Shown here piece by piece: positions 1 to 37,535 of a stretch of DNA of 37,535 nt; within the stretch, counting starts at the first letter, position 1, and every line of letters starts with the position of its first letter. Source of the DNA: a virus; the IMG/VR virus record IMGVR_UViG_3300036859_000606, positions 1-37,535 of that record; one strand, 5' to 3'. The notes below the pieces were generated by a model. That model did not search any database. It worked only from the letters and a program-made list of their open reading frames with translations, and had not been told where the DNA came from. Made by a program: the position numbers and the translations under genes.

Positions 1-293
1 TCGGGGGGCCGATTCTTGAAGGCGAGGCCCTTCTCGTCCTCCGAGAGCTCGAGCGTGCCCGACTTGTTGCGCCCCAGCACCAGGTCGTTCTCGTGGTTCC
101 AGAGGGCCCGGATGTCGTGCAGGCCGATCGTCTCGGTGAAGGCCCCGGGCGCGATCCTCTCGCGCCAGCCGCCGAAGTCGTCGGAGAGTTGCCCGAAGAC
201 GGCGATGTAGCCGGAGAGCACCGGCGCCTTGTCGTCGCCCGACAGCCGCAGCTCCGTGCCCTTCACGAACCGCGTTTCCAGTTCCCTCAGCAT
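1..293 (-). CDS. Prohead protease, HK97 type, N-terminal part (cut by window edge)
   Basis: The minus-strand frame starts at an ATG (293-291) 5 bases after AGGAGG and stays open to the window edge, giving 97 residues. The product shows the N-terminal pattern of caudoviral prohead serine proteases: SGYIAVFGQLSDDFGG, then ERIAPGAFTE, then ALWNHENDLVLGRNKSGTL. The His of the NHE motif (about residue 67) fits the catalytic His of the family; the Ser region lies beyond the edge. The enzyme cleaves the capsid delta domain and scaffold during head maturation. Its start overlaps the end of the upstream small gene by 7 bases. The capsid gene is at the other end of the window, which is the usual next gene, so the missing C-terminus probably lies between the two window ends. 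Confidence 0.88.
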   Translation of the reverse strand, partial: MLRELETRFVKGTELRLSGDDKAPVLSGYIAVFGQLSDDFGGWRERIAPGAFTETIGLHDIRALWNHENDLVLGRNKSGTLELSEDEKGLAFKNRPP

Positions 294-475
294 GGCTCTC
301 CTCCTAGGCCACGACGCTCAAGCTCGGCCCGTACGTCATCAACCATCTCGCAGCAGGACCGCGCGACGACGCGGCCGTCTTTCTCGATCTCGAGCAGGTC
401 ACCATGCGATTCATTAGCATCTTCGTGACAGCTCGGGCAGCAGTGCGCCCCTATAAGATCCCCGCAGATGATCAA
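287..475 (-). CDS. Small Cys-rich protein between portal and protease
   Basis: This 62-residue frame starts at TTG (475-473) with an AGGAG about 7 bases upstream, 9 bases after the portal stop, and ends inside the protease start. The N-terminal part contains HCCPSCHEDA, and a second CC pair follows near residue 41, so a small zinc-binding fold is plausible. The remainder is charged and helical. I do not recognise a family. The tight coupling to portal and protease suggests that it is expressed with the head genes. Confidence 0.6.
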   Translation of the reverse strand: MIICGDLIGAHCCPSCHEDANESHGDLLEIEKDGRVVARSCCEMVDDVRAELERRGLGGEPC

Positions 476-9153: not shown

Positions 9154-10865
9154 CACTTCTTCGATCCCTTCTTGGCCCCCTTCTTCCGGGCCTTGCGGAC
9201 CATCTGCTTGCCGGCGGCCTCGAGCTCCGCCGGCGTCGCGCAGGTGCTGCAGAGGGTCTGCTTGCGATCCACCCAGGCGCAGCCGCCGGCGCAGGCGTTG
9301 TCCTCCGTGCAGCCGCACTTCCGGCAGGTCCCCGGCTCGCCCTTTGCAGACGTCTGCACTTTCGCAGCCGGCGCCGCCTGGTCGAGGATCTTCCGGGCGT
9401 CGACGTTCAGCGCCTTGGCGATGGGTAGGAGCTCGTCCTCCACGCGCCAGCCGTTGCCCCCCTGCGACCGGATGACGATCATCGCGGCGTGGCGGACCAG
9501 GTCCTCCGCCGACGTCCCGCGCGGCACCAGCTTCTCGACTTGCTTGCTGGTCGCCTCGTAGCTGTACAGACCATCGAGGAGCAGCTGTGCGAGGTAGCCA
9601 TTCGCCCGGGTGGGCGCCTTCTTCACGGCTTCGGCGAGGGCGGCGAAGACCGCCGGCAGCGCCTTCGCCCAGCGGGCCCGCTTCGCTTCCGCGGCTGCCT
9701 CCCTGGCGCGGTACTCCTCCTGCTGCTTCTGCTCTTGGAGGCGGCGCTTGCCCATGGACGGGGTCTCGCCGCTAGAGGCCGCCTTCTCGCGCTTCTGCTT
9801 CTCGCGCACGCGATCCGCCCAGTGCACCGTGCACTTGTCCTTGTTGATGCAGACCATGAAGGCCTGGCCCTGCCCCTCGTCGCACGCCACGAACCCGACG
9901 CGCGACCAGTCGCAGGTCTTCGACCGCTCGTTGCCGTCGGCGCGCTTCCAAGCGTTCTGGCCGTAGATGGGGTCCTTGCCGGCGTGACGGACGTCGCGGC
10001 TGGCCATGTAGCCGTTCGTGATCAGGATCGGCTTCAGCTTGTCCCCCTGGCGGGCCTCCAGCAGCGCCTTGGTCTCGGGGAACAGGAAGCCGTCGACGTG
10101 TCCGGGCTCGGCGCGCACCCGGTCCTGGATCCAGGCCTGTAGCTCCCGGACGCTGACCGTCTTCAGGCCGGCGTATGGATCCTTCTTCGCCTTCGGGTCC
10201 GGCTTCTCGGCATCCTCCCCTTCGAGCGGCAAATGGGCGTGTTCTTCGGCGAAGAGCCCGCCAATCGGGTAGCTCTTGCCCGTGTCCCCGCGGTCGATGG
10301 CCCGCTCTTGGTCGCCCGGCTTCAGGCGCGCCAGCAGGACGGCGTGTCCGGCGGTGAATTTCCCCTCGAGGAACAGCTGTTGCGCGTCCGGGACCAGCTG
10401 CAGCAGCTTCATCCGGTCGTAGACATACTTCACCGACCGGCCGACGCGCGCCGCGATCCGCGCCACGTCGTACCCCTTCGTGGCGAGCAGCTGCTGGTAG
10501 CCCCGGGCCTCCTCAAGCGCATGCAGGTCGCGGCGCTGCAGGTTCTCGATGACCTGGATTTCGAGGACCTCCTGGTCGGTCAGCACGCGCACCGACGCCG
10601 GCACCGCCTCGAGGCCGGCGAGTTTGGCGGCGCGCAGCCGGCGCGCGCCGCAGACCAGCTCGTAGCCGCGCACTCCGTTCGGCCGGACGACGATGGGCTG
10701 CAGCAGGCCCTTGGTCCGGATGCTCTGGGCGAGTTCGTCGAGCGCGCCGGGGTCGAACTCGCGCCGCGGGTTGCTCTTCGACTCCCGGATGGTGTCGATT
10801 GGCAGGGCGTTCTCGAAGTGGCCCGGATCGGCCACGGGTTCCTGGGCGGTCAGTTCGCTGGACAT
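9153..10865 (-). CDS. ParB/Spo0J-like DNA-binding protein with C-terminal zinc motif
   Basis: The 570-residue product has a ParB/Srx N-terminal domain: PIDTIRESKSNPRREFDPGA, then LAQSIRTKGLLQPIVVRP, the arginine box CGARRLRAAKLAGL and ENLQRRDLHALEEARGYQQL, followed by an HTH (RIAARVGRSVKYVYDRMKLL). These are the CTP-binding and parS-binding regions of ParB proteins. A long middle part holds a charged coiled coil (about 370-400). A Cys cluster near 525-550 (CRKCGCTEDNACAGG, then CSTC) forms a zinc motif known from large phage ParB-like proteins, and the end is Lys-rich. AAGGAGG precedes the ATG closely. No ParA gene is in the window, so its role may be in replication or DNA marking, not classic partition. 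Confidence 0.88.
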   Translation of the reverse strand: MSSELTAQEPVADPGHFENALPIDTIRESKSNPRREFDPGALDELAQSIRTKGLLQPIVVRPNGVRGYELVCGARRLRAAKLAGLEAVPASVRVLTDQEVLEIQVIENLQRRDLHALEEARGYQQLLATKGYDVARIAARVGRSVKYVYDRMKLLQLVPDAQQLFLEGKFTAGHAVLLARLKPGDQERAIDRGDTGKSYPIGGLFAEEHAHLPLEGEDAEKPDPKAKKDPYAGLKTVSVRELQAWIQDRVRAEPGHVDGFLFPETKALLEARQGDKLKPILITNGYMASRDVRHAGKDPIYGQNAWKRADGNERSKTCDWSRVGFVACDEGQGQAFMVCINKDKCTVHWADRVREKQKREKAASSGETPSMGKRRLQEQKQQEEYRAREAAAEAKRARWAKALPAVFAALAEAVKKAPTRANGYLAQLLLDGLYSYEATSKQVEKLVPRGTSAEDLVRHAAMIVIRSQGGNGWRVEDELLPIAKALNVDARKILDQAAPAAKVQTSAKGEPGTCRKCGCTEDNACAGGCAWVDRKQTLCSTCATPAELEAAGKQMVRKARKKGAKKGSKK

Positions 10866-11749
10866 GGGACCTCCTTCGTGAGGGTCGCTTCGTAGGCGGC
10901 GCGCAGCTCCGGACGGAGCTCGTCGAGCTTCTGCCGGTAGCGCTCAGGAGCCTTCTGCCGCAGGACGTTCAGGTAGCTGAACAGGGCATCATCGGGCGAC
11001 TGCTGGTTCGGGGCCCGGGCGGGCGGCCCCCCGATCTCGTCCTCCCAGCGGCGCTGGTGCAGCCAGCTCGCCGGGTTGCACCACTCCGGAACCCATTCCC
11101 CCTGGCGCGTCTTCGCCGCGCGCAGCTCGATCTGCCCGGTCAGGGCATCGAGCAGGACCTGGAGCGTCACACCGGCCTTCCGGGCCTTGATGAATTTCTC
11201 CTCGGCCTTCCGCTTGGCCGTGCGGTGGCCTTGGGGGTATGCCTGCCAGAACGTCTGAAACTCGGCCAGGTGGAGAGAGCGCGCCGCGCCGTTCTGTGGC
11301 GCGGAGGGGGTAGGGGGTAGTACTGAAGATCCTGTAGATCCCGTTAAAGAAGATCCCGGCGGAACGTACATTGCCTGCCGCGGCATTTCGTTGCCTGCAA
11401 TTGCCTTTCGCGGCACAGCCGTAAGTGACGGAGGCGGCGGTATTTCGTCGGACGGCTCTTTCGGGTGCGGGTGCTGGTGCTCGCTGAAGGCGTTGATCTG
11501 GATGTACCGGTGCCCGTCCACCTCGTACCGGGTGAGGAACCCCCCGTCATGCAGCTCCTGGAGGGCGGCGTTCATGTCGATCCGGTCGAACGGCAGGATC
11601 TCGGCCTTGAGGCGCCCGGGCCGGTCCTCGAGGCGGCCGTGCCGGTCGGCCCTGCACCAGGTCCCCTGGAAGGCGATCCGGATGAGCGGGGCGAGCCTGG
11701 CCAGGTCCTCATTCGTGAAGAACGAGGGCTTCAAGATCCGTTGTCGCAA
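10850..11749 (-). CDS. Phage replication-initiation-like protein (O/DnaD type)
   Basis: The chosen start is TTG 11749 with GGAGGA about 6 bases upstream, giving 299 residues beginning LRQRILKPSFFTNEDLARLA. That N-terminal winged-helix-like region (IRIAFQGTWCRADRHGRLED, then RPGRLKAEILPFD) is widespread in phage replication modules. The middle is Pro/Ser-rich. The C-terminal region with FQTFWQAYPQGHRTAKRKAE and NPASWLHQRRWEDE matches the end of lambda O-like or primosome-loading proteins. The probable role is recognising the origin or recruiting helicase. The open frame extends further upstream but that part is low-complexity and overlaps another gene. The end overlaps the ParB-like gene by 16 bases. 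Confidence 0.8.
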   Translation of the reverse strand: MRQRILKPSFFTNEDLARLAPLIRIAFQGTWCRADRHGRLEDRPGRLKAEILPFDRIDMNAALQELHDGGFLTRYEVDGHRYIQINAFSEHQHPHPKEPSDEIPPPPSLTAVPRKAIAGNEMPRQAMYVPPGSSLTGSTGSSVLPPTPSAPQNGAARSLHLAEFQTFWQAYPQGHRTAKRKAEEKFIKARKAGVTLQVLLDALTGQIELRAAKTRQGEWVPEWCNPASWLHQRRWEDEIGGPPARAPNQQSPDDALFSYLNVLRQKAPERYRQKLDELRPELRAAYEATLTKEVPCPAN

Positions 11750-11763
11750 CGACTGTCCTCCGG

Positions 11764-12201
11764 TTAGTCGCCGGCGGCGGCCGCGCGCGGGTCGCGCTGG
11801 GCCGCCGTGCGGTTCTTCTTGCTGGCGGCGCTCGCCCCCGAGCACGTGGCGAAGTGGCTGACGTAGTTGCTCGGGTTGAGGCCGCTCCCGACGTCGGCGC
11901 CGGCGCGCTCGATGACGTAGACGCCGGACTCCTGGTCGAATCGGACGATTCGGTAGACCGGTGCGACGGGGTCGAGCGGAATGCGCTGGCCCTTCTCGTC
12001 GATGCCCCAGACGATCTTCTTCGGGCAGTATCGGCACGGCCTCAGAGCGTCGATGCCGCACCTCCCCGGGACGGCCCCGGACACAGCCAGAAACAGACCC
12101 GGCCGCGCACCAGATGGTCGAGCCAGCCGGTGAAGGCACAGCGCAGGCACTTCAACGCGGATCCACATGGTGCCGGCCTGGCCACCAGAGGGACATCCCA
12201 T
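11764..12201 (-). CDS. Conserved phage Cys-motif protein, start uncertain
   Basis: The convincing part is the C-terminal ~90 residues: PCRYCPKKIVWGIDEKGQRI, PLDPVAPVYRIVRF and NPSNYVSHFATCSG. This pattern (CxxC, IxWxxxxxGxRIPLDP, SHFxTC) is common in small phage zinc proteins of unknown role. The upstream part (to 12201, or to ATG 12168) is less protein-like and overlaps a better small frame. A GGGAGG at about 12064-12069 suggests that translation may really begin near 12058, but no ATG, GTG or TTG stands at the right distance there. Confidence 0.62.
   Translation of the reverse strand: MGCPSGGQAGTMWIRVEVPALCLHRLARPSGARPGLFLAVSGAVPGRCGIDALRPCRYCPKKIVWGIDEKGQRIPLDPVAPVYRIVRFDQESGVYVIERAGADVGSGLNPSNYVSHFATCSGASAASKKNRTAAQRDPRAAAAGD
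12042..12155 (-). CDS. Candidate 37-residue Cys-rich peptide
   Basis: A TTG at 12155-12153 overlaps the stop of the upstream gene (TTGA) and opens a 37-codon frame beginning LKCLRCAFTGWLDHLVRGRV, then CFWLCPGPSRGG. Four Cys in two pairs fit a minimal zinc knuckle. It overlaps the doubtful N-terminus of the 11764 gene in another frame, so only one of the two readings is likely to be right. The coupled overlap and the Cys pattern favour this peptide. Confidence 0.42.
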   Translation of the reverse strand: MKCLRCAFTGWLDHLVRGRVCFWLCPGPSRGGAASTL

Positions 12202-13781: not shown

Positions 13782-14005
13782 TGGACCACCCCGAGCGCCA
13801 TCCCCAGCGCCAGGCTGAGCGCGCAGAGCGTGATGAGGCCCATGAACTTGAGGACGTCCCCCAGTTCATCTGGCTCGCGCTCGGGGAAGAAGAGCAGGAC
13901 CCACCCGAGCAGCGCATGCGCCCAGCGCTTCGACCACAGCCAGGCCTCGAACCGCTCGGTGCGCGTCAGGAGCAGCCGGTCGGGGGAGAACAGGAGGCGG
14001 TTCAT
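13778..14005 (-). CDS. Small membrane protein
   Basis: From ATG 14005 (ATGA overlap upstream) the product is 75 residues. The N-terminal half is basic and aromatic (RTERFEAWLWSKRWAHALLG), followed by the hydrophobic WVLLFF, a charged PEREPDELGD turn and a strong C-terminal membrane segment, LITLCALSLALGMALGVV. The longer upstream frame is out of register with coding sequence. Role unknown. Confidence 0.66.
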   Translation of the reverse strand: MNRLLFSPDRLLLTRTERFEAWLWSKRWAHALLGWVLLFFPEREPDELGDVLKFMGLITLCALSLALGMALGVVH

Positions 14006-14658
14006 GCGGCGGGGTACAGCGCCGCGAAGGCGTCCGTCAGCTGCTGCAGGTGGCTGAGCGCGCCGTTGCCGTCCTTCTCGGCGGCCTGGCGCAGGATGGG
14101 AAGCCCCGATTCGACCGACTCCAGGACCTCGGCGCGGGTCGCCGTCCGGCCCTCGCGCCACCATTCGACGCGCAGCGCCGGGCCCATGCGCAGGAGCGGC
14201 CGGCCCTGGCCGTCATCGAAGACGCCGTAGTCGTTGCAGACCCATAGGAGCGTGACCCCCGGGTTCCGCTTGATCATGTCGCCGGCGACGTTCGCCTCGC
14301 ACGACCTGGTCAGCTCGTCCTCGCGCCTGACCATCTGCGGCCGGCTCATGAACGGGCAGTTCCGCACCGACCACTGGGCGCACTGGAGGTGCGAGGGTGG
14401 CTCCGACGTCGTGCGGTTGATGCCGCACATCGGCCCGACGACGAAGACCAGGTAGACGCCGAGCGGATGACCGCAGACCCAGCAGCGCCGCTCGCGCACG
14501 GCCAGGACGAACTTCTTCGGATCCATCGCTCGAAACTCGGGTTTTCCCCCGACCCAGGCGAGGAACCAGGGGACCGGATAGCCGCGGTCGTCGACGGGCA
14601 GCCGGCGCATCCGCGGCGGGAGCGCCTCGAGCTCGGGCCTCAACAGCGGCGCCGTCAC
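14002..14658 (-). CDS. Conserved phage protein with Cys cluster
   Basis: The 218-residue product begins with a Pro-rich leader, then MRRLPVDDRGYPVPWFLAWV, CWVCGHPLG, VGPMCGINRTTSEPPSHLQC and NCPFMSRPQMVRRE. This motif string is shared by a widespread family in phages and in bacterial genomes, probably a zinc-binding protein whose role is untested. The C-terminal half is helical. It is coupled to both neighbours. Confidence 0.78.
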   Translation of the reverse strand: MTAPLLRPELEALPPRMRRLPVDDRGYPVPWFLAWVGGKPEFRAMDPKKFVLAVRERRCWVCGHPLGVYLVFVVGPMCGINRTTSEPPSHLQCAQWSVRNCPFMSRPQMVRREDELTRSCEANVAGDMIKRNPGVTLLWVCNDYGVFDDGQGRPLLRMGPALRVEWWREGRTATRAEVLESVESGLPILRQAAEKDGNGALSHLQQLTDAFAALYPAA

Positions 14659-14972
14659 GATTTCACCTTCGCGATGGCGGCAATAGCGTCAGGCATCCAG
14701 CACCCAGTGATGTGCCCGCTCTCACGTTCAGAGATGGAGCAGGAGCATTGTGCGGCCTCCAGCGCGGCGAGAAGGTCGGGGGCGGCGGCCACGAGGCGGG
14801 CGTTGGCGCCCGTCGGGTTCGGTCCTGCCTCAGGCCCGAACACGATCGCCACCCCGCGCTGCCCACCGAGCGTCTGGCTGACCTGCCAGTGCTTTCGCCT
14901 GCAGGTGATGTCGCGCGGCCCCGTATGCTCTGTAAGGCCCCATGGACCTGGCGTGTGCTTGGTTTCGTTCAC
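14655..14972 (-). CDS. Small phage protein of the HTPGPW type
   Basis: The GTG start (14972-14970) overlaps the upstream stop as GTGA. The 105-residue product begins NETKHTPGPWGLTEHTG and has GANARLVAAAPDLLAALEAA near residues 57-76. The pairing of an N-terminal HTPGPW with ANARLxAxAPDLL is a familiar signature of phage early proteins of unknown function. The C-terminus is short and has a CSC motif. Confidence 0.78.
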   Translation of the reverse strand: MNETKHTPGPWGLTEHTGPRDITCRRKHWQVSQTLGGQRGVAIVFGPEAGPNPTGANARLVAAAPDLLAALEAAQCSCSISERESGHITGCWMPDAIAAIAKVKS

Positions 14973-15646
14973 GATTCCCTCAGGGCCGCCCCGCGGGCGA
15001 TCTCATTCGTCACGGGGCGGCCTACAGAGCTGATCGCCGGCGGTAGCTCGACGATCCGGATCCCTGGTGAGAGACCCGCGGGCGGGACGGCCGCCCGGGC
15101 CGGTTGCGTCAGGTGACGCGCACGTGATGGCGCGCCCGTCCCGGCAGCCCGTGAAACCGGAACGGACGCGCCGCGCCCTCTGGAGGGGGTCCGCCTGTAG
15201 AGACTCCGCAAGCGGGAGGGACGCAGCTGGTGCCTGCCCCGGGAGTCGAACCCGGCTATGTGGGTTATGAGCCCGTTGACCGTCCGATGGTCCTGGCTGT
15301 TGCGATGGCCCCGCGCGATCGCCTGGCGCACGAAGACCCCGATCGCCTGGCGCAAGCCGTCGGCCTGGGCCTCGGCGAGGCGCCGGGACAGCTTCTCCTC
15401 GTTCCCGATGTCCGCGCTGATTTGCGCCAGGACGGCTTCGGCCTTGCGCCGGCGCTCGGCCGGATCCTTGAGCGCGGCCGCCTCGACCAGGTGCTTCAAG
15501 TGGAGAGCGACCTCGGCGAACGCCTCGTCGCGAGCCCGGGTGGCCGCCTCGTCCATCAGCTGCAGCGCGAGCTCGACCGCGGCGATGCGGCCGTAGACCT
15601 CCCCCATGCGGCGGCTGACGTCGGCTCGCAGGTCCTCACGCTGCAC
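14969..15646 (-). CDS. Helical protein whose reading frame crosses a tRNA-derived att-like core
   Basis: The start is GTG 15646-15644 with AGGAGG 6 bases upstream. Residues 1-115 are a convincing alpha-helical protein (LRADVSRRMGEVYGRIAAVE, then LALQLMDEAATRARDEAF). From about residue 124 to 140 the frame translates the tRNA 3'-half at 15228-15274 (NGLITHIAGFDSRGRH), and the remaining ~85 residues are Arg/Pro-rich and less protein-like. The frame still ends in a GTGA overlap with the next gene, so translation may really run through. If this core recombined with a host tRNA, the gene would be split and its C-terminus replaced. Function unknown. Confidence 0.6.
   Translation of the reverse strand: MQREDLRADVSRRMGEVYGRIAAVELALQLMDEAATRARDEAFAEVALHLKHLVEAAALKDPAERRRKAEAVLAQISADIGNEEKLSRRLAEAQADGLRQAIGVFVRQAIARGHRNSQDHRTVNGLITHIAGFDSRGRHQLRPSRLRSLYRRTPSRGRGASVPVSRAAGTGAPSRARHLTQPARAAVPPAGLSPGIRIVELPPAISSVGRPVTNEIARGAALRES
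15228..15274 (-). other. 3' half of a CAU-anticodon tRNA, att-like core
   Basis: On the minus strand the sequence reads as a tRNA from the anticodon loop (CTCATAA, flanked by GGG and CCC) through a perfect T arm (5-bp stem, TTCGACT loop), the 3' acceptor strand GGCAGGC, a discriminator A and an encoded CCA. The 5' half (matching acceptor strand and D arm) is missing: the bases upstream do not pair. Such 3' halves are the usual form of a phage attP core that restores a host tRNA gene on integration. The identity could be Met, initiator Met or Ile2, all of which have CAU. It lies inside the 14969-15646 gene, about 0.9 kb from the integrase end, and is probably a second or former att site. Confidence 0.65.
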
Positions 15647-15797
15647 GCCGCACCTCCTGGCCCGCCGCCCCGGTGCTGCGGATTGCCCGGGCACACGTAT
15701 TGCACTGCAGCGACCCACCGACTCGAGGCGCCGGCGCGCACGACAGCCGCGAGACGGCGATTTGGGCGGGGAACGCGGGGGCGGGGCGGCGGGCCAT
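15636..15797 (-). CDS. Candidate small CxxC protein
   Basis: A 53-residue frame starts at ATG 15797 and ends 11 bases inside the next gene, whose AGGAGG lies within its 3' end. It has LQCNTCARAIRSTG near the C-terminus, a CxxC like those of the neighbouring early proteins. There is no good ribosome-binding site upstream, and the frame is also open far beyond, so the call is tentative. If real, it is the first gene of the early operon. Confidence 0.4.
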   Translation of the reverse strand: MARRPAPAFPAQIAVSRLSCAPAPRVGGSLQCNTCARAIRSTGAAGQEVRRAA

Positions 15798-15880
15798 CAC
15801 GAAGGAGCGACGTGCACGATCTGAAACGTGTTCTCCGGCGAACACCCGGACGTACGTACGTGCAAATACGGTCAGTACCT

Positions 15881-15907
15881 GAGCACCGGAGTGGGAGTCC
15901 GGTGCTC
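15881..15907. repeat. Perfect 10-bp inverted repeat with 7-base loop
   Basis: GAGCACCGGA (15881-15890) and its complement TCCGGTGCTC (15898-15907) flank GTGGGAG. There is no T run on either side, so it is not a typical intrinsic terminator. It may be an operator, an excision-factor site or an RNA stem at the end of the integrase transcript. Confidence 0.7.
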
Positions 15908-15984
15908 GACGCACGAGTAAATCTAGGGGTTCAAAAGCCGGTACAGAATCGGTGATCCGCCACGCATCGGATACGGGGACCGAC

Positions 15985-16029
15985 GCGTCCCCCCCCACCT
16001 GCGCGCGCATCGCGCGGGGGGTCCGACGC
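15985..16029. repeat. GC-rich nested inverted repeat
   Basis: Arms GCGTC/GACGC and a C run/G run enclose an inner stem GCGCG/CGCGC with loop CGCAT (16006-16010). The stem is imperfect around the C run. No T tract follows on the minus strand. It lies between the integrase-proximal att core and the hairpin at 15881. Confidence 0.5.
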
Positions 16030-16060
16030 ATGGAGCACCGATTCCGAAGGTCCGGCAGGG

Positions 16061-16105
16061 TGGTGCGCCCAGCAAGACTCGAACTTGCGACCTTCGGATT
16101 CGTAG
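16061..16105 (-). other. 3' half of tRNA-Arg(ACG), probable attP core
   Basis: On the minus strand the sequence starts at the anticodon loop CTACGAA (anticodon ACG), continues with TCCGA, the variable bases AGGTC, a perfect T arm (GCAAG, TTCGAGT, CTTGC), the acceptor strand TGGGCGC, A and CCA. The bases before the loop (ACTTT) do not pair with TCCGA, so the 5' half of the tRNA is absent. It lies 51 bases downstream of the integrase stop codon, the usual place for attP. I infer that the phage integrates into a host tRNA-Arg(ACG) gene at the anticodon loop and rebuilds it. Confidence 0.75.
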
Positions 16106-16155
16106 AAAGTCCATAGGGACACCGATCACCAGGGGCATGACGTCGGGAGCACGGC

Positions 16156-17034: not shown

Positions 17035-17399
17035 GTGGCCTCTGCGCCAGCGCTCAAACACGCGTTGCCCCCCCCGAGCATTGTTTCCGGGTATGTACCG
17101 CCAGAACCCGCGCCAGTCAACCAGAAGCTGGGAGCCCCCGGCCATCCGAGGATGTCGAGGCGGGCGTCCGGCAGGAGTCCGACTCCGCCGGGGGTCCCAT
17201 TCCGTCTGATGGATATCGCATGCATCGCTCGTTACTCCTGCCGTGACGTGGCGGAGTATCGGCCCCCGTACCCGACTTGTCAAGCACTATTTTGGGGGTG
17301 TCCGATGCGTGGCTGGAATGCGATTTATGCTTTGGGCCGCATGAACAGTCTGGCGCGGATTTCCGGGGCATCTGCATGTCCTGGACGGCCTTTCATGCT
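17035..17399. other. Integrase leader and gap to the lysis block
   Basis: This stretch holds the integrase promoter and about 215 bases of possible untranslated leader, in which several frames remain open. In the integrase frame the leader would read ...LVDWRGFWRYIPGNN..., so an N-terminally longer integrase is possible. Between 17284 and 17399 I see no gene that I can support and no clear terminator. Confidence 0.4.
17255..17283 (-). promoter_or_regulatory. Sigma70-like promoter for the integrase
   Basis: On the minus strand a perfect TTGACA (17283-17278) is followed after 17 bases by GATACT (17260-17255), which matches TATAAT at four of six positions. Transcription would start near 17248, upstream of the integrase start at 17034. 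It is the best promoter that I noticed in the window. Confidence 0.6.
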
Positions 17400-37513: not shown

Positions 37514-37535
37514 GGGCGGATTCCTCCGGTGAACC

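Follow-up and report, generated by a model that had tools for sequence, protein, structure and literature searches.

In the Islander set of tRNA islands, 3' fragments are found in 3,760 of 3,919 islands, and 5' fragments occur in a small minority of 159 (PMC4383910). A rebuilt tRNA that is expressed from the side of the element is seldom met in bacteria (PMC8371274). The locus described here carries two different tRNA 3' halves next to one tyrosine integrase gene, one of which is a working attP core, and a related phage carries the opposite half of the same tRNA gene.

The window, i.e. the whole stretch of DNA that was analysed, is a virus record of 37,535 bases with 67% G+C. It is the genome of an HK97-type temperate phage, circularly permuted and nearly complete; the phage infects soil Acidobacteria and inserts into an arginine-tRNA gene. 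The large and small terminase subunits, the portal and the major head protein belong to HK97-type families, and a ParB-like protein and a replication initiation protein are also encoded. All structural, lysis, integration, replication and packaging genes are located on the minus strand. A prohead-protease-like gene is interrupted by the ends of the record (window 1-311 and 37514-37535), which nearly join; when they are joined, the start of this gene, with a part missing, comes to lie between the portal and the major head protein. As the ends join across this gene, the genome is taken to be circularly permuted and almost complete, with a short piece missing, and the integrase region is thus internal, as in an attP, and not the end of a prophage. 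The features of the region are listed in Table 1.

Table 1 Features of the integrase region (positions in the window)
Feature	Position	Strand	Details
Next phage gene after the CAU half	14655..14972	(-)	PHROG 1273, unknown function
Second tRNA 3' half (CAU in anticodon position), probable relic	15228..15274	(-)	GGGCTCATAACCCACATAGCCGGGTTCGACTCCCGGGGCAGGCACCA
Orphan coding region, 123 aa	15278..15646	(-)	codon-usage profile
Three TCCGAYGCRT sites (15962, 15979, 16022)	15962..16031		putative integrase arm-type, P' side; motif scan
Inverted repeat	16039..16102		14-nt arms, 93%; phage flank CGATTCCGAAGGTC pairs with the anticodon side of the core; repeat search
attP identity block, 48 nt	16058..16105	(-)	tRNA-Arg(ACG) 3' half: anticodon-loop C32 through CCA, plus CCC
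Tyrosine integrase gene, 291 aa	16156..17031	(-)	probable ATG 17031; longest open frame to 17283
Exact TCCGAYGCRT site upstream of the integrase gene	17301..17310	(+)	

Both 3' halves reported in the initial annotation were found again on the minus strand, in the same orientation and about 0.8 kb apart, at 16061-16105 (tRNA-Arg(ACG)) and 15228-15274 (CAU); the distance of 51 bases between the Arg half and the integrase stop (16156) is exact. Neither ARAGORN nor Rfam detects a complete tRNA anywhere in the window, so they are indeed halves only. A strict motif (T arm, acceptor and NCCA, with a T stem paired at 5/5 positions) has exactly two matches in the window, namely the Arg and the CAU half, compared with 0.0033 expected per dinucleotide-shuffled genome. 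Applied to related viral loci (463 kb in total), it detects a single full tRNA, and a further three 3' halves that are each located at most ~460 bases from an integrase match. A complete, permuted or intron-split tRNA formed from either half was considered and rejected, as there is no suitably placed D arm or GCCTGCC 5' acceptor.

The Arg half is a working attP core: a host MAG contains both attP and attR, and attB is found in relatives. The identity block of attP and attB (CTACGAATCC...CACCACCC) is common to the window, to contigs C82 (attP) and C12 (attR) of the acidobacterial MAG G021, and to the tRNA-Arg gene of the relative G162 (L042); with G001, 45 nt of tRNA are identical. Two acidobacterial MAGs other than G021 match the Arg half exactly (42/42), one in an intact tRNA-Arg(ACG) gene and the other in a displaced 3' half. 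Contig C82 corresponds to window 16198-12988 with 100% identity and zero mismatches over 3,211 bases. Contig C12 is identical to C82 in its first 141 nt, departs from the phage after CACCACCC (window 16057), and, having started at the integrase end and crossed the core, enters the host chromosome, where genes for a histidine kinase, a cytochrome c peroxidase and a glutamine synthetase follow. A gene near its far end (15059-16141) has a counterpart downstream of tRNA-Arg(ACG) in two relatives, G162 and G001, and in G002 it follows the displaced tRNA-Arg half. This synteny places the C12 junction at the tRNA-Arg(ACG) locus, which is intact in relatives.

C82 and C12 start at the same base and have exactly 141 bases in common, and therefore look like the two sides of a k-mer branch point; k=141 is a common largest k of metagenome assemblers. 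One branch would lead from phage to phage (attP), the other from phage to host (attR). No contig spanning attL was found, and no tRNA-Arg(ACG) was recognised in G021, which is expected if the attL junction lies outside the bin. The attP-core form that the initial annotation had attributed to both halves is thus borne out for the Arg half by the attP and attR contigs and by attB in relatives, whereas no arm sites, integrant or matching host tRNA were found for the CAU half. An ordinary attP is now well supported for the Arg half, and attR provides a firm virus-host link for the poorly cultured Acidobacteria.

In this acidobacterial family, the tRNA-Arg(ACG) locus has the appearance of a hotspot for integration. 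In G002 (L105:14870, G002:C64), it contains a displaced 3' half of a different element, and the next conserved gene is located between ~1 and 15 kb away (G002:C64; L101, i.e. G021:C12). A decayed stretch resembling a tRNA 5' half directly follows a 36%-identical integrase in G112:C92 (L104:1220-1260), with an intact tRNA-Arg(ACG) 0.7 kb beyond it. In G162, three related tyrosine recombinase genes are encoded in tandem on one strand (L102, G162:C41:90031-94768), which resembles a recombinase-in-trio.

The integrase has a Pfam Phage_integrase domain (PF00589, 3e-30) and an N-terminal SAM-like domain, and is assigned to the PHROG integrase family. A scan for TCCGAYGCRT that tolerates one mismatch places three sites within 70 bases on the far side of the Arg core and one more upstream of the integrase gene. 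Exact copies number three in the whole window, all of them in the integrase/Arg-core region. Three TCCGAYGCRT sites are likewise found beside the core of the related phage L054 (IMGVR_UViG_3300031949_000097), whose integrase is 63% identical, and the last pair (inverted, 17 bp apart) recurs beside the core in L054/L064.

The CAU half comprises an anticodon loop CTCATAA, a correctly spaced GGG/CCC stem, and CCA. Its T stem and CCA are undecayed, so that it is either recent or under some constraint. The CAU anticodon named in the initial annotation is written in the phage copy, but to show that the donor was a tRNA-CAU would take the source gene. The suggested search of host tRNAs recovered the Arg half exactly; for the CAU half, no tRNA with up to 3 mismatches was found in the searchable genomes (396 Acidobacteriota, the phylum to which the source-tRNA search was confined), and the sole match is the phage contig C82, which is assembled unbroken across it. 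The three CAU tRNAs of the host MAG G021 have T arms and acceptors unlike those of the CAU half. Plasmids, phages and viral contigs searched for its source show similarity at the level of the T arm only; the half is absent from every other viral contig searched, including the viral relatives retrieved via the gene at 14005-14658, and neither a relative nor an ancestor with an attP of the CAU type came to light. Copies of TGCGCCAGGC near the CAU half were considered as old arm-type sites and rejected, as the motif is common genome-wide, also occurs in an open frame, and two of the copies are an in-frame duplication. A degenerate full initiator tRNA at the CAU site was also rejected, since its score of 19.5 equals the shuffle maximum and its acceptor ends are unpaired.

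The CAU half is located between the orphan coding region and an intergenic stretch of ~250 bp. According to the codon-usage profile, the minus-strand coding signal runs from ~15646 to ~15278 and vanishes at the edge of the CAU half. There is no stop codon at this edge, and the frame stays open through the CAU half to 14969. No family and no homologue was found for the 123-aa region. A coding signal that ends at this edge is what would be expected of a recombination scar in which the end of a gene was replaced from the anticodon loop on. Just upstream of the orphan coding region, a perfect 15-base inverted repeat (TGGCCCGCCGCCCCG) is found at window 15658-15672 and 15782-15796.

The reading preferred here, with a probability of roughly 0.65, is that the phage integrates into tRNA-Arg(ACG) by its tyrosine integrase and that the CAU half is an inert scar of an older attP or of another element. 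The integrase would insert the phage at the anticodon loop of the host tRNA-Arg(ACG). At attL, a functional tRNA would be restored from the 5' half of the host and the 3' half that the phage contains in its attP block, and the 3' half of the host is displaced to attR, the junction that was seen. The CAU half would once have been the P' half of an earlier attP, or that of a different element with a tRNA target, and module recombination next to it would have brought in the present int-attP module. Directly in support are attP and attR of the Arg half, the intact attB in relatives, and arm-like repeats at the Arg half only. The likeliest history of the CAU half appears to be that the int-attP module was exchanged next to an earlier attP. 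Since neither a relative with a CAU attP nor a source tRNA was found, we infer the direction of events, as we do the relic status of the CAU half and the module swap.

An origin of the CAU half in illegitimate recombination, as a captured piece of a host or phage tRNA or the attR of a neighbouring island that was never the attP of this lineage, seems rather unlikely. The junction that cuts an open reading frame, the failure to find a CAU source tRNA in the host lineage, and a tRNA-Arg locus that collects elements (as in G002 with its displaced 3' half) would fit such an event. The CAU fragment, however, starts exactly at the anticodon loop, the crossover point of tyrosine integrases, as does the Arg half, whereas a random capture would break anywhere. 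It is quite improbable that the CAU half serves at present as a landing site or a regulatory element, be it an attB-like target, a tRNA-like RNA or a transcription end signal: the intact T arm and CCA and the position ahead of an intergenic stretch would suit this function, but Rfam yields no match at the curated threshold and no other viral contig contains the half. Chance similarity to a tRNA is hardly credible. A partial match of 88% (34 nt) does exist inside a coding gene of Serratia phage Eta, but that stretch has no TTCGA T loop, and against chance stand the motif expectation of 0.003 per shuffled genome and the CAU half's loop, stem and CCA.

Very improbable is a pair of working attP cores by which one integrase would address two tRNA targets. 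Both halves are of the anticodon type in form and share one orientation; against this, their anticodon arms differ in sequence, no TCCGAYGCRT arm-type motif is present within 690 bases of the CAU half, and none of the 396 Acidobacteriota genomes provides a host tRNA that matches it. In G021 the contigs branch at the Arg half but not at the CAU half, although contigs, unlike reads, could let a rare integrant escape. Of the three options that the initial annotation had offered for the second half, a relic of an earlier integrase fits best. Ongoing target switching and a site for a second element are both unsupported, as neither a CAU integrant nor arm sites nor a matching host tRNA was found. 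The CAU half is thus most likely left over from a former attP or from another element, rather than acting as a second working site.

The related phage L054 is unexpected and the more surprising fact compared with the CAU half. About 80 bases past its integrase stop, L054 carries the 5' half of the same tRNA-Arg(ACG) gene on the opposite strand (GTGCGCCCATAGCTCAGCTGGATAGAGCGTCGGACTACG), which stops at the same anticodon bases. It is preceded by a promoter-like stretch, GTGCTAGACTTCCGCCCC, that is close to GTGTTAGACTTCCGCTCC of a host gene in L042; half and stretch together lie at L054:3280-3330. The site is internal to the phage, with tail fibre and sigma-factor genes on one side and replication genes on the other. 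Judged from the sequences, L054 probably uses the same target and the same crossover point with the opposite tRNA half. The orientation of the tRNA relative to the integrase gene is inverted between the two phages, and the copied half is located on the side away from the integrase gene in both, so that, in either case, the far junction would be where the tRNA is restored upon integration. A second tRNA relic in L054 (3765-3812) was rejected; it is D-arm-like but scores 17, compared with a shuffle maximum of 19. Elsewhere in L054, ~1.5 kb of extra DNA (10694-12191) splits the ParB-like gene between residues 247 and 250, and no Rfam intron match was found for this insert.

It is conceivable, and proposed here tentatively, that within one clade of acidobacterial-phage integrases, elements flip between two ways of carrying the same tRNA-Arg gene, as its 3' half or as its 5' half together with the promoter, by way of the dyad symmetry of the anticodon stem, and sometimes keep superseded halves as scars. 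If true, flips and scars would form a readable record of target and orientation switching. To our knowledge, a flip between 3' and 5' halves has not been reported for close relatives; the basic survey (Williams 2002) stands outside this view. How an integrase acquires a new target is known largely from inference on trees. In the window phage, the core in use lies next to what was probably its predecessor, and together with a relative that carries the opposite half these are concrete intermediates that can be tested.

The window phage resembles the tyrosine-integrase prophages and islands of the Islander set in that the tRNA fragment in attP restores the gene after integration, crossover takes place at the anticodon loop, and the displaced fragment marks the far end (PMC4383910). 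It differs from them by a second, unrelated 3' half that so far matches no host tRNA. L054 is similar to integrases that carry a 5' half (PMC4383910), including the archaeal pTN3-like ones (PMC8371274), in having the 5' half of tRNA-Arg(ACG) along with a promoter-like stretch, from which it follows that the rebuilt gene would be driven from the side of the element. In contrast to these, the integrase of L054 is closely related to one with the 3' half of the same gene. An att-like site that remains inside an element after two elements with different targets have recombined is also known from the tRNA-Ile2/fis PICI tandem (PMC10111431). The tandem keeps a large duplicated region and both units, whereas the window phage retains just a tRNA half and perhaps a truncated gene.
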